Shown here in pieces: positions 49,029 through 55,312 of a stretch of DNA of 56,136 bases; the stretch's first letter is position 1; the number at the start of each line of letters is the position of its first letter. The notes beneath the pieces were generated by a model. That model made no database searches, had not been told where the DNA came from, and saw only the letters and a list, made by a program, of their open reading frames with translations. Source of the stretch: Fusobacterium perfoetens (GTDB lineage: Bacteria; Fusobacteriota; Fusobacteriia; Fusobacteriales; Fusobacteriaceae). The DNA lies in contig NZ_JADYTX010000009.1 of assembly GCF_021531475.1 (NCBI RefSeq), positions 1-56,136 on the forward strand, given 5' to 3'. Both the position numbers and the translations under genes were made by a program.

Positions 49029-49703
49029 TTGGAATATATTTCAATTTTTTCAAAAAACCATATTTTTTATATTTTATTTTTTACTCTGTTTTATAGTGGA
49101 CTTATTTATTCAAGAAAATTTTTGCCACAGAGAAAATTTGAAATAACAGTTGCTGTGGCTCTTAGCTTTGTAAAAATAATTACATATATGGGAAGGTATT
49201 TTATAAATCATGAGCCTTTGTATGCTCTTTGTCCTATTCATATTTGTAATGTATCTTTTATTTTAGCAGTTATATTTCTTATAAAACCAAACTTAAAAGG
49301 ATTTCAGCTAGTATTTTATATGTCCCTTGGGGCATTAGCTGCTATTTTATTTCCAGAGGCAGTAAAAGTATTTCCAGATCCATTTGGAATTGCTTTCTTT
49401 ATGGAACATTTCTTTATAATATTTATGATTTTTTATCAAATGATATATCTAAAATTTAAGCCTAACCTAAAAGGACTTTTTAATACTTTTATAGCTCTTA
49501 ATATTTTAGCTGTGGTTGCTTATATTTTTAATAATCATTTTGGTACTAACTATATGTTTGTAAATCATAAGCCAGTATCTGCTTCACCTATTGATTATTT
49601 TGGTCCTTGGCCATTTTATATTTTAGTAGTTGAGTTTATTTTTATTGGACTTGGATTTATCTGCTATCTCATTTTCAGAGAGAAAAAACAAAAAACTTTT
49701 TAG
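49029..49703 (+). CDS. TIGR02206/YwaF-family membrane protein
   Basis: A 224-residue integral membrane protein with about seven hydrophobic helices; features of the TIGR02206 family include ALCPIHICNVSFILAVIFL, a His in FFMEHFFIIFMIFY and the late segment YFGPWPFYILVVEFIF. Function is unknown. Start TTG at 49029 with AAAGGAGGG ahead. It is 11 bp after the RNase H gene and likely co-transcribed. Confidence 0.82.
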   Translation: MEYISIFSKNHIFYILFFTLFYSGLIYSRKFLPQRKFEITVAVALSFVKIITYMGRYFINHEPLYALCPIHICNVSFILAVIFLIKPNLKGFQLVFYMSLGALAAILFPEAVKVFPDPFGIAFFMEHFFIIFMIFYQMIYLKFKPNLKGLFNTFIALNILAVVAYIFNNHFGTNYMFVNHKPVSASPIDYFGPWPFYILVVEFIFIGLGFICYLIFREKKQKTF

Positions 49704-49736: not shown

Positions 49737-49742
49737 TCAGTT

Positions 49743-49813
49743 GTTATATAACTGACGGAAAAAGTGGAAACAACCACATGAAGTATAACGATTATAATGC
49801 CGACCGTCTGGGC
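49743..49813 (+). ncRNA. ZTP/ZMP (pfl) riboswitch aptamer
   Basis: P1 pairs GTTATA (49743-49748) with TATAAC (49784-49789); P2 pairs GTGG (49764-49767) with CCAC (49774-49777); the 3' domain is GCCGACCGTCTGGGC (49799-49813). The conserved loop GACGG (49754-49758) is the exact complement of CCGTC (49804-49808) and gives the pseudoknot that joins the two domains of pfl-type RNA. The 3' sequence matches the pfl hallmark. An intrinsic terminator overlaps it and a formate/nitrite channel follows. Confidence 0.88.
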
Positions 49814-49841
49814 GAAAAAGCCTAGAAGTTCGGCTTTTTTT
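49799..49841 (+). terminator. Terminator of the ZTP riboswitch expression platform
   Basis: GCCGA (49799-49803) pairs with TCGGC (49830-49834) and GGGC (49810-49813) with GCCT (49820-49823), followed by a T-run. It reuses the aptamer 3' domain, so ligand binding should block it and turn the channel on. Confidence 0.8.
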
Positions 49842-49865: not shown

Positions 49866-50648
49866 ATGTCTAAATCTTTTTTAGGTCCGTCAGAAATAAC
49901 TTCTGCTGTTATTGCTATGGGAATATCTCGTGGAAATGAGAAGAATATTTTTAAAACTCTTATTTCTGGATTTGTAGCTGGTATGTTTATCGCCCTTGCT
50001 GGTATTGGGCAAATTACAGCTTCACAAACTCTTGCCCAAACTTTTGATGTAGGTTTTTCAAAATTTATTGGTGCTAGCATATTTCCTATTGGTCTTATGC
50101 TTTGTGTATTCACTGGAGCATCTCTTTTTACAGGAAATAGTCTTTTAACTCTTTCTTTTCTTACAAAAGATTTAAAATTTTCTAATCTTGTAAAAAATCT
50201 TACTATTGTTTGGATAGGAAATTTTTTAGGAAGTATTTTTACAGCCTATGTGGCTTTTTATGCTGGAGTTTTTAAATCTCCTATCATTCAAAAAGTTATT
50301 TTAGACACTGGAATTTCAAAAATTAGTCTTTCTTTTTCAGAGTGTGTTGCCAGTGGATTTTTCTGCAATATTCTTGTGGCTATGGGAGTTATTATGGCAA
50401 TGTGTTCAACTGACGCCACTGGAAAATTTTTAGGTTGTTGGTTTCCAGTTATGCTTTTTGTACTTTGTGGTTATCAACACGTTGTTGCAAATATGTTTAT
50501 AATCTATGCTGGAAAAATCCTTTCTCCTGAAAATTTTTCTATGTTAGATATTTTTATTAAGCATTTTTTACCAACTAGTATCGGAAACTTTTTATCAGGT
50601 GGAGTTTTCTTACCACTATTTTTATATTTTTCTTATTATAAAAAATAA
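49866..50648 (+). CDS. Formate/nitrite transporter family channel
   Basis: A 260-residue six-helix membrane channel of the FNT (FocA/NirC) family, which passes formate, nitrite or small anions. Family features: GFVAGMFIALAGIG (first helix), FPIGLMLCVFTGASLFTGNS (near 75-94) and the later CNILVAMGVIMAMCSTDATGKFLGCWFPV with FVLCGYQHVVANM. The riboswitch name pfl reflects links with pyruvate formate-lyase, so formate export or uptake in one-carbon metabolism is likely. RBS TAGGAGG ahead of the ATG; terminator downstream. Confidence 0.92.
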   Translation: MSKSFLGPSEITSAVIAMGISRGNEKNIFKTLISGFVAGMFIALAGIGQITASQTLAQTFDVGFSKFIGASIFPIGLMLCVFTGASLFTGNSLLTLSFLTKDLKFSNLVKNLTIVWIGNFLGSIFTAYVAFYAGVFKSPIIQKVILDTGISKISLSFSECVASGFFCNILVAMGVIMAMCSTDATGKFLGCWFPVMLFVLCGYQHVVANMFIIYAGKILSPENFSMLDIFIKHFLPTSIGNFLSGGVFLPLFLYFSYYKK

Positions 50649-50659
50649 ATTTTAAATAT

Positions 50660-50705
50660 AAAATTAGCCCTTTTGATAGTTTCATCTTAAGGGCTAATTT
50701 TTTTT
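50660..50705 (+). terminator. Terminator after the formate/nitrite channel
   Basis: AAAATTAGCCCTT (50660-50672) and AAGGGCTAATTTT (50689-50701) form a perfect 13-bp stem, followed by T. It also meets the convergent Res gene. Confidence 0.88.
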
Positions 50706-52956
50706 AAAAAATTTTATCTAATGGTTTCCAACAATCATTATTCATATCTTCTCTATATTCTGTATCACTATAATATAAATCATTATTTTTATCTCTTACA
50801 AATGCAAAATTATAGTTGTTCCTTTTTGCAAAATTTTTAAATGCCTCAAATTTATTTTCAGCCTGAATATCTATATTTTTACTTCCATATTTATTTTCTC
50901 CACCTTTAGTTTCAATAATCCAAATACTATCATCTTCTAATTGAATTATATAGTCTGGATAAAATAATCTTTGTTTTTCAAAAAATGTTCCATAAACTAC
51001 AGATAAATAATTTTGTCCACTGTCTCCATTCTTGTAAATAAATTTAACCTTATCATTATTTTCACAATACTTCTCAAATAATCTTTCACTTGTTGACCTT
51101 ATCCCATCAACTATCATAGAAGTATTATATTTTTTATATACATTCTTTTCTAAATCTTTTACATATTTTTCATATGGTAAAAATCTATAATTTTCTTCCA
51201 AAGGAATTGTAAAATCTTCAACCTTATTTGATAATATTTGAGTTTGAATTTGTTTTATTCCTTCAAATCTTCTAAAATCATCTTTTAATTTATCTGCATT
51301 ATTTATAATAAATGCTGTAAATTCTTTTATTGAAAGATTTAATATTTTATATCTTCCTACACCTACATCTCTTAGAAATAAAGTTCTTAAAAGAGCATTA
51401 GTTTTCTCATAGCTTAAATCTAATATTTTTTTTAGATAATCTATTCTATTTTGTTTTTCTAATCCATGATAATGTGTATTAACTTCTATCTCTAATTCTT
51501 CATAATTTGTAGAAGTCATAAGTTCTTTGGTTTCTATATACTTTCCTGTAAGATATTTAGATTTTATTTTTGTACCAAATATATATCCATATGCTTCAAG
51601 TTTTTTTAAATTTTCAGATTTTATATTTTCTAAATTATATTCATCTTTAAAAAAGTCATAAAGTTTATTTCTCATAACTTTTTCATCAAGATAATTTCCA
51701 TCTTTATTTCTCAATTCTTTTTTTAATTTTATTTCTTTTAGTTCTGATTTAAGGAAAACTCTTTGAGTTTCATAACCACCAGTTTTTATGACTTCTTGTT
51801 TATACTTTTCATCAAAAGTATAAAGATAAGAACAGTCTAAAATTTCTTTTCCATAGTGCTTTGCCCTTGGCATTCTCCTTAATCTTCCTAAAGTTTGAAT
51901 TTCAAATTGTTCATTCATATTTTCTCTAAGTTTTATAAGAATTTTAGCTCTTGGACAATCCCAGCCTGTTGCTAATGCTTGTTTAAATAAAAGAAAACAC
52001 GGAACAGCATCATTTTTTGTAATGCTGTCTTCTCCATTAATTTCTCCTATATTTATTTTTCCAAGTTTTTTAGATTTTATTTCTTTATCTTGTTTATTTT
52101 CAGCAGAAAACCAGCTTGCAAGCATTTTATTTTCATAAGTATATCCCATACTTTTTAACTTTTCTTCCACATATTCTATTAATTTATCATTAAGATTAGG
52201 AAATTGAATAAGTACAAGTGGTCTAATATTCTCATTTTCTTCTTGATATGCTTTTAATATTTTTTTTCTGACCTCATCAGCTTTTTCTATAAGAAGACTT
52301 GTTTCACTTTCTATTCCATCAATAGTAACTTCTCCTAAATCATTATTTATCAATAAGTATTTAGTTATAAGTTCTTCAGTTATTACATCAGCTTCTTTAA
52401 TCTGATAATGTTCTGTATTTTTTCTTAAATTTGGAGTAGCAGATACTCTAATTTCATATCTTGAATTTATTGCACTTATAATATCATTAGCTTTTGAAGT
52501 ATTATTTTGATGTTCTTCATCAATTATAAGAATAATTTTTTGATTATTTCTTTGACTATCAGAAATTCTATTAAAAAGATTTTTCCTTTCACTATCTCTT
52601 ATAGCTCTATTTGTTTTATCTGTTACCATTTCCCAGTTAATAAAATATGTAGTCCCATTTTCAAATCCAGTATTTAATATATTATGTATATTACCTGTTT
52701 TTAGAGAATGAGAATATCTTTCCATTTTTTCTTTAGATTGTTCTTCAAGCTCTCCCTTTCCTGGAGTAAACCAACAAAAAATTGTATCAGGAAAATAAGA
52801 TAAATATTTTTCTATATATGCTATGAGAAGTATTGTTTTTCCACTTCCTGTAGGGCTTTCTACAAGTATCTGCGGAAAAGACAGTTCACTTGTTGTTTTT
52901 TCAAAAAGATAGTCTACACATTTATCTTGAAATTTTTTTAATTCTATTCCTATCAT
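50704..52956 (-). CDS. res: Type III restriction enzyme, Res subunit
   Basis: A 750-residue restriction subunit. An N-terminal DEAD-like helicase: Walker A SPTGSGKT (near 34-41), DEEH in LIIDEEHQN, RVSATPN and FKQALATGWDCPRAKIL with LGRLRRMPRAKHYG for the later motifs. A C-terminal nuclease (about 690-710) with PDYI and IETKGG of the PD-(D/E)xK type. It cuts DNA after ATP-driven movement when paired with Mod, which gives sequence recognition. It overlaps the mod frame by 4 bp (ATGA). Because Mod is broken, the system is probably silent. Length is in the lower range for the family. Confidence 0.9.
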   Translation of the reverse strand: MIGIELKKFQDKCVDYLFEKTTSELSFPQILVESPTGSGKTILLIAYIEKYLSYFPDTIFCWFTPGKGELEEQSKEKMERYSHSLKTGNIHNILNTGFENGTTYFINWEMVTDKTNRAIRDSERKNLFNRISDSQRNNQKIILIIDEEHQNNTSKANDIISAINSRYEIRVSATPNLRKNTEHYQIKEADVITEELITKYLLINNDLGEVTIDGIESETSLLIEKADEVRKKILKAYQEENENIRPLVLIQFPNLNDKLIEYVEEKLKSMGYTYENKMLASWFSAENKQDKEIKSKKLGKINIGEINGEDSITKNDAVPCFLLFKQALATGWDCPRAKILIKLRENMNEQFEIQTLGRLRRMPRAKHYGKEILDCSYLYTFDEKYKQEVIKTGGYETQRVFLKSELKEIKLKKELRNKDGNYLDEKVMRNKLYDFFKDEYNLENIKSENLKKLEAYGYIFGTKIKSKYLTGKYIETKELMTSTNYEELEIEVNTHYHGLEKQNRIDYLKKILDLSYEKTNALLRTLFLRDVGVGRYKILNLSIKEFTAFIINNADKLKDDFRRFEGIKQIQTQILSNKVEDFTIPLEENYRFLPYEKYVKDLEKNVYKKYNTSMIVDGIRSTSERLFEKYCENNDKVKFIYKNGDSGQNYLSVVYGTFFEKQRLFYPDYIIQLEDDSIWIIETKGGENKYGSKNIDIQAENKFEAFKNFAKRNNYNFAFVRDKNNDLYYSDTEYREDMNNDCWKPLDKIF

Positions 52957-54557
52957 AATTCTCCTACCTCTCTTAATTCACTTCTGTAATAATATTCGGG
53001 AATTTCTATTTTTTTTATATTTTTTTGCTCTAATATTAACTGCTGTTCTTTAGAAGCAAATATATCTGATGAAACAAATAATCTTATATTCTCTTTCATA
53101 CTTTCATTTACAATTTCATCAAATTCTTCTTCGTCTTTAATTAAAATATTGTTTATTCCATCTATTTCACACATATATTCAAGTTCTATAAGCTCTTTTA
53201 CATAATTTAGCATTTTATATTTTATAGAACTTTCTTCATCTTCAGAGAATTTAGGAATAAATTCTGTCTTAAAATATTTTAAATTATGAGGAAACTCATC
53301 TTGAATTTTACTTAATCTCTGATAAGTAACTTCTTCACAAATATTATTTTCATTATTTGTACAAAGAATATACTTTCTATTTCCTCCATCTTCTTTATTA
53401 AGGTGTATTACTGTTTGTCCTGTAGTTCCTGAACCTGTAAAAAAATCTAATATTATGGCATTCTTATTTCCTATTTCTAAACATCTTTTAATTAGAGCTA
53501 TTGGTTTAGGATTATCAAATATTCCTTTTTGATTAAAAATTCTTTCTAATTCTTTACTTCCTGCTGTATTTTCAGAAATATCATTCCATAAAGTATCTAT
53601 CCTCTTTCATTCATTTTCTCTTTCATTCCAGTATTTTTTTTCTCTTATTCTCTTACCTTCAAAATATAATCTATTATCATTTTCTAAATTTTTTAATTTT
53701 GCATAAGTCATTCTCCAACCTTTAGGAGGACATTTCCAAACTTTCCCAGTATTATCTATATAATCATAAGTAGTTTCAGGTCCGGGATCTTTTGGTTTTT
53801 GCAAACTTACTGTAGAATATTTTCCCCTTCCATCTCCATCATCTTTATTGAACATTTTTGCTGAACTTTCTGCCAATGGTTTATAAGTATTATTTAAAAT
53901 ATAATTTTTTGTTTTAGAATATAAGTATAAATATTCTGTATTTACAGTAAATTTTCCTTTTTCAGTTTTACTACTTGAATTTCTTTTCCAAATAAATTTA
54001 TTTATAAAATTGTATCCAAATATCTCATCACATAATAATTTTAACTGAGCATCTTCATAATCATCTATTGAAATAAAAATTAAACCTTTTTCAGATAAAA
54101 GTTCTCTTGCTATTATTAGTCTATTTTTCATAAAAGAAAGCCATTTACTATGTTTAAAATTATCTTCTTTATCTACATAACTATCATTGTATATAAAATC
54201 TTTTCCATTTGTATTATATGGTGGGTCTATGTAAATTATATCAATTTTCCCTTTATGAGTTTTTTCAAGTAACTTAAGACTATGAAGGTTATCTCCTTCA
54301 ATTAAAAAATTATAATCATTACTTTCTAAATTTTTTATTTTTCTATTCTCTATTTCTGTAAAAACAGGAATATTATGTATCATTTCTTCATCTACTCTTT
54401 CTATATGTTCTTCCCACACAAGCCCATATTTCTTTTCTGTAAGAGCATTTTCTATTTCATTTATTGCCATAAGAGTTTCATCATCTTGATGTTCAGCTCT
54501 AATTTTATTTAAAAAATTAAGCATTTTTTCTCTTTTTAACTGTGATAAATTTGCCAT
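52953..54557 (-). pseudogene. mod: Type III modification methyltransferase Mod, broken by an in-frame TGA
   Basis: One continuous frame of 534 codons is interrupted only by TGA at 53609-53607 (codon 317), in the stretch KKYWNERENE-stop-KRIDTLWNDI. The part before the stop has the DPPY motif (IYIDPPYNTNG, near 111) and the target-recognition region; the part after has DFFTGSGTTGQ (SAM-binding FxGxG, near 373) and KEDGGNRKYIL, giving beta-class motif order. The stop therefore separates the two essential motifs. I saw no good in-frame start with RBS near the stop; the first ATG after it is at 53213. ATG 54557 with GAGGAG upstream is the start; the longer frame from 54599 is less likely. A sequencing error, a recent mutation or read-through are the possible explanations. 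Confidence 0.85.
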
Positions 54558-54733: not shown

Positions 54734-55312
54734 TTATATATCTATTATGATTATATCTTTTTTCTCATTTAATTCATTATAAGAGTTTTCTGATAAAACT
54801 ACTTTATACATAACTCTATCATTATAACCTTTTTCTTGGATTTCATCTCCATTTTTATAGATTATCTGCTCTATCTCTGAAACTTTGTCATAAGAAAATT
54901 CTAAAAGATAGATTTTTTTAGGAATATATTCTATTATTCCAGCCTCTTGAATAGCAAGTTTTGCTGTTTTTGCATAAGCTCTTACAAGTCCACCTGCTCC
55001 AAGTTTTATTCCACCAAAATATCTTGTAGCCACAACTACCAAATTTTCAACTTCCATATAAGTTATAATATCCCCCATTGGTTTTCCAGCTGTACCTTTT
55101 GGTTCTCCATTGTCATCAACCTTAAAATATTCCTGCCCATTCTCAGTAAGTTTATATGCACTACAATTATGAGTGGCATCATAATGTTTTTCTTTTACCA
55201 TTTGTATAAATCTCTCTGCTTCTTCCTTTGAGCTAACAGGTTTTATATATCCCATAAATTTTGATTTTTTTTCTTCAAACTCTATTACACATTCTCTCCC
55301 TATCGTCTGCAT
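54734..55312 (-). CDS. YigZ/IMPACT-family protein
   Basis: A 192-residue protein of the UPF0029/IMPACT (YigZ) family. N-terminal domain with FEEKKSKFMGYIKPV, KHYDATHNCSAYKL and the family hallmark DDNGEPKGTAGKPM (near 71), then VVATRYFGGIKLGAGGLVRAY (near 93); the C-terminal part is the DUF1949-like ferredoxin-fold region. The exact function in bacteria is unsettled; ribosome- or RNA-related roles have been proposed. RBS AGGAGAG overlaps the end of the M50 gene 9 bp upstream. Confidence 0.92.
   Translation of the reverse strand: MQTIGRECVIEFEEKKSKFMGYIKPVSSKEEAERFIQMVKEKHYDATHNCSAYKLTENGQEYFKVDDNGEPKGTAGKPMGDIITYMEVENLVVVATRYFGGIKLGAGGLVRAYAKTAKLAIQEAGIIEYIPKKIYLLEFSYDKVSEIEQIIYKNGDEIQEKGYNDRVMYKVVLSENSYNELNEKKDIIIIDI

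Follow-up and report, generated by a model that had tools for sequence, protein, structure and literature searches.

A single in-frame stop codon probably silences the Mod subunit of an apparently acquired type III restriction-modification pair in Fusobacterium perfoetens

The EcoP15I and EcoP1I type III restriction-modification (R-M) systems consist of a Mod subunit with DPPY and FxGxG motifs and a Res subunit with the helicase part, and their mod gene lies directly upstream of res. As set out in a section of PMC3874151, it is Mod that recognises the target site in type III enzymes, and Mod both directs Res and increases the amount of Res. An OFF clone of the MmyCI system of Mycoplasma mycoides had no activity, according to the part of PMC3498834 that deals with it. 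The premature stops in R-M genes described in the portions of PMC3498834, PMC9465063 and PMC6789123 drawn on here resulted from repeat-length changes or other indels. Matches of Fusobacterium to modA alleles are on record (PMC3311624, in extract). The literature searched on mod genes with premature stops, on Fusobacterium mod genes and methylomes, on methyltransferases with simple sequence repeats and on poly-G mod genes held nothing attributable to the present locus. This locus has the same motifs, gene order and helicase part as the EcoP systems and, judged from its sequence, would be a broken member of the type III R-M systems and not a working one.

The Mod reading frame occupies positions 54557-52953 on the reverse strand of the window (the whole stretch of 56,136 nucleotides that was analysed) and comprises 535 positions, with a single internal stop at codon 317. 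The initial annotation had described a Mod divided by one in-frame TGA between its DPPY and FxGxG motifs, and this was confirmed by translation and by the motif positions. The N-terminal half (53607-54557, reverse strand) starts with an ATG at 54557, preceded by a Shine-Dalgarno-like AGGAG at 54567-54563, carries the DPPY motif and the variable target-recognition region, and ends at the TGA (53607-53609, reverse strand) to give a product of 316 residues. The C-terminal half (52953-53606, reverse strand) contains FTGSG, from 53441, and the conserved C-terminal region, and closes with a normal TGA stop at 52955-52953. The two motifs are thus on opposite sides of the internal stop and are not encoded in one polypeptide. 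When the stop was read through, the frame of 534 residues matched the PADLOC profile MTase_III over 1-534 (3.5e-165), and the Pfam N6_N4_Mtase domain was split with little loss, profile positions 1-133 falling in the N-terminal half and 140-213 in the C-terminal half. The best PDB relatives were Mod chains (6k0w, 7dsu and 4zcf), EcoP15I among them. The unshifted frame on both sides of the stop together with the full-length type III homology is far beyond chance.

The res gene (50704-52956, reverse strand) adjoins mod and shares a 4-base ATGA overlap with its end; it has its own AGGAG at 52965-52961 and an open frame of 750 codons with ResIII and DEAD matches, so that the claim of an overlapping and undamaged Res held. 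Over the roughly 3.86 kb that Mod and Res together span, the TGA at codon 317 is the only lesion. It had also been suggested that restriction is silent or waiting for reversion. The first part agrees with the known dependence of Res on Mod, which in type III enzymes provides site recognition and guidance for Res and boosts its amount (PMC3874151, in the section cited above); the second part was not borne out, as no repeat tract that would allow reversion was present.

A scan of the collection returned 204 loci encoding relatives, and the best 80 of these were examined. The column of the stop could be aligned only in the five loci that share the recognition region (L011-L015), as the recognition region of the other loci differs and makes the column untrustworthy there. 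All five had a glycine at this column and an open frame, although they amount to three distinct sequences, L012-L014 being identical over the printed stretch. Because these relatives, which have the same recognition domain, encode glycine at that position in an uninterrupted frame, and the frame here is unshifted, one substitution suffices to account for the TGA, as had been proposed. Mod was visibly damaged in five of the best 80 of the 204 loci (L019, L032, L053, L060 and L065), a count that leaves subtler damage aside. The Mod of L032, from a Clostridium sp. metagenome-assembled genome, has one in-frame TAA beside an open Res frame of 742 codons. L019 and L065 have frame breaks in Mod, and both loci run off their contigs. 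L053 and L060 have lost the N-terminal part of Mod up to the DPPY motif, which may reflect an old lesion common to both or an unusual form of the gene; Res is open in L060 (753 codons) and lies in two frames in L053. Some letters are common to these two loci upstream of the Mod break (about 3940-3960 in L053 and about 6001 in L060). The Mycoplasma locus L018 contains stops under translation table 11 and forms one frame of 582 codons under table 4. No near-identical copies of Mod were found in plasmids or phages, all matches being below 60% identity; viral contigs contributed six loci, with best segments of 34-50% identity.

The 98 genomes of the phylum were also searched for Mod, relatives counting as clear when long stretches matched at about 50% identity or above. 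Besides the genome studied here, such relatives were present in G037, G091, G094 and G096. One intact Mod and Res were found in G094. Two intact tandem Mods precede one Res in G091 (L164 2058-10294) and G096 (L165 3246-9670), and both genomes also carry a remnant of a third Mod; the tandem Mods match the query Mod outside the recognition region. The closest Mod-Res relative in the family, in G037 (L128 3447-5742), is decayed: its Mod changes frame beyond residue 125, and its Res is truncated. Damaged Mods were thus present in G037, G091 and G096. For Res, any match was obtained in only 3 of 60 other genomes of the family, and the match was strong only in G037. Broken or surplus Mod copies beside a readable Res therefore recur in this Mod family, which fits a Res that is harmless without Mod. 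A search of the strain's own genome with this Mod found only this copy; PF01555 gave one match over its cut-off and one below it (23.2 bits), and a second intact Mod in this genome was accordingly rejected.

Poly-G tracts (9, 12 and more) occur a short way downstream of DPPY in more distant Mods from this genus and family, at L129 3764-3772 (G024), L130 3428-3439 (G028), and L131 5034-5110 and L132 13-28 (G003). In G024 and G028 the Mod frame changes across the tract, and in G003 one contig ends in a poly-G tract while another starts close to one. These are candidate phase-variable mod genes. The frame breaks after DPPY in these three genomes were considered as an explanation of the stop at codon 317 and rejected, as they belong to distant poly-G Mods.

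The Mod-Res pair lies between two genes that form conserved flanks, a UPF0029-family gene (54734-55312, reverse strand) and a TMEM164-family gene (49029-49703, forward strand). The segment between them in the window also contains a formate/nitrite transporter gene (49866-50648) preceded by a ZTP riboswitch (49738-49820, forward strand; 61.4 bits, cut-off 39). Another Rfam match in the region, RMST_3, fell below its cut-off of 55 with 24.9 bits and was taken as chance. The pair was missing from the UPF0029 site in all six sister genomes, and no close match to either protein was found in these six other genomes of the genus. In G002 and G005 the UPF0029 and TMEM164-family genes abut, the stretches that matched being about 40-50 bases apart, whereas G004 has other genes between the flanks and the gene order beyond UPF0029 differs in G001, G003 and G006. 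Because the pair is absent from the six genomes and the site is empty in two of them, it looks recently acquired. The absence and the abutting flanks would be typical of a defence module that is acquired and dispensable.

The reading favoured here, with a probability of about 0.72, is that an acquired type III R-M pair lost its modification subunit by one recent nonsense substitution. The main rival holds that the base was miscalled or misassembled, or that the TGA is a minority allele from a mixed sample; mod itself would then be undamaged and the system functional. The genome is a draft of 92 contigs, the stop is one substitution from an open frame and lies within a local 11-base repeat, and the rest of Mod and Res is intact. 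The missing C-terminal half of Mod is, on the other hand, the clearest gene-sized gap among the open reading frames of the window, and the local sequence quality therefore looks good. A lone substitution outside homopolymers is not a typical assembly error. An error of this kind was considered unlikely, at a level that still deserves attention. No strain of the species besides this one was found. The repeat itself, GAATGAAAGAG, proved to be real and slightly longer than the initial annotation had stated: it is a direct repeat of 11 bases on the reverse strand, with its first copy at 53618-53628 and its second copy, which holds the TGA, at 53602-53612, the copies being 16 bases apart from start to start. 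The first copy is also present in the relative L011. It is possible that the substitution was templated between imperfect repeats. The repeat might further be thought to let the gene alternate between a stop and a sense state, as a point-mutation form of phase variation, since the letters of the copy that contains the TGA are identical to those of the other copy in another frame, and phase-variable mod genes are well known (PMC3874151 and PMC3498834, in the sections cited). No other pair of identical 11-mers lying at most 20 bases apart occurs in the 56-kb window, but at least one such pair occurred in 153 of 2000 codon shuffles of the Mod gene, and the repeat alone is therefore weak evidence. 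Within Mod (52953-54557) no tract of the phase-variable type was found, units of at least 7 bases being present in about 2-3.5 copies with scores of 30-47, and none of the tandem units found spanned the TGA. Gain or loss of the 16-base unit would moreover shift the frame and not toggle codon 317, and a second allele was not seen. Repeat-driven switching was rejected on the lack of a tract and on the repeat not being rare enough, and the chance that the gene is a reversible switch appears very slim.

The initial annotation had also envisaged that the two halves work through read-through or by assembly of a split enzyme. The genome contains a tRNA-SeC with anticodon tca (75.8 bits, cut-off 47; L134 1497-1590, contig C43), which makes selenocysteine decoding of UGA probable at some site in this genome. 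Beyond this tRNA there was no sign of read-through at the locus. If the TGA were decoded, as selenocysteine or by near-cognate read-through, a little full-length Mod would be made, and methylation and restriction would be low and dependent on translation. Control of EcoP1 restriction by misreading of a stop codon was indeed once proposed, but this idea applied to Res, and sequencing of the genes later brought a different explanation (PMC3874151, in the section concerned). No hairpin was detected just after the TGA, where folds were no more stable than shuffles (z of -0.72, -0.77 and 0.12). The relatives' column is glycine, not cysteine, and none of the five alignable loci has a stop there. Selenocysteine at codon 317 was rejected on the hairpin and the glycine column, and decoding of the TGA in general was judged highly improbable. 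A variant of very low probability in our estimate is that misreading of UGA at a low rate sets the level of the type III system through translational fidelity. Each cell would then have a few molecules of Mod, methylation would be partial and restriction would be conditional; if true, this would couple methylation and restriction to conditions that raise misreading. Assembly of a working methyltransferase from halves made separately would be in keeping with the position of the break at a domain-like boundary, where the recognition region gives way to the conserved part that binds AdoMet. The stretch from the TGA to FTGSG (53441), however, has no in-frame ATG, GTG, TTG or CTG, only ATT and ATA, and the first in-frame ATG after the TGA, at 53213, lies beyond the motif and is itself preceded by none of these four codons. 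The closest relatives encode a single chain. A naturally split methyltransferase was rejected for want of a start codon for its second chain, and its probability is negligible.

Under the favoured reading of a nonsense substitution in an acquired mod, one base change would have left a fragment of 316 residues that retains the recognition region together with the catalytic motif DPPY but lacks both FxGxG, the motif that binds AdoMet, and the C-terminal part. Such a fragment should not methylate. This takes the base to be real and the mutation to be recent, and would imply that no full-length Mod is made. Res should still be translatable from its own ribosome-binding site, but there would be no Mod to find sites for it or to stabilise it; Res alone would then be inert, restriction would be off as well and the cell would be unharmed. 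With the loss of Mod both activities should fall silent without harm, which can explain why Res has stayed intact. Alternatively, Res may be intact because the system still operates by another route. Nothing in the locus points to a new mechanism. This locus probably gives the strain neither type III methylation nor restriction, a useful point when its methylome is read or the strain is to be transformed. The importance of this beyond the one genome is small, as broken Mod copies are common and the finding is ordinary.

Compared with EcoP15I and EcoP1I, the locus differs in that its Mod is interrupted by a stop and its 750-codon Res gave no match to PDB sequences at E 0.001. It resembles the OFF state of MmyCI, in which a premature stop in mod is accompanied by an overlapping res, but in MmyCI a change in the length of an AG repeat shifts the frame, whereas the Fusobacterium Mod has an unshifted frame and no such tract (PMC3498834, in the part on MmyCI). 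Premature stops likewise silence an R-M subunit in some strains of M. agalactiae and Neisseria gonorrhoeae, where inactivated R-M genes and mod pseudogenes are known; in the portions of PMC9465063 and PMC6789123 that describe them these cases are frameshifts, repeat-length changes or a deletion, in contrast to the in-frame substitution found here. Within the same Mod family, L032, with its one in-frame TAA and open Res of 742 codons, the decayed locus of G037 and the remnants in G091 and G096 are also interrupted. All of these have break points other than that of the present Mod; in addition, the Res of G037 is truncated, and G091 and G096 keep their intact tandem Mods.
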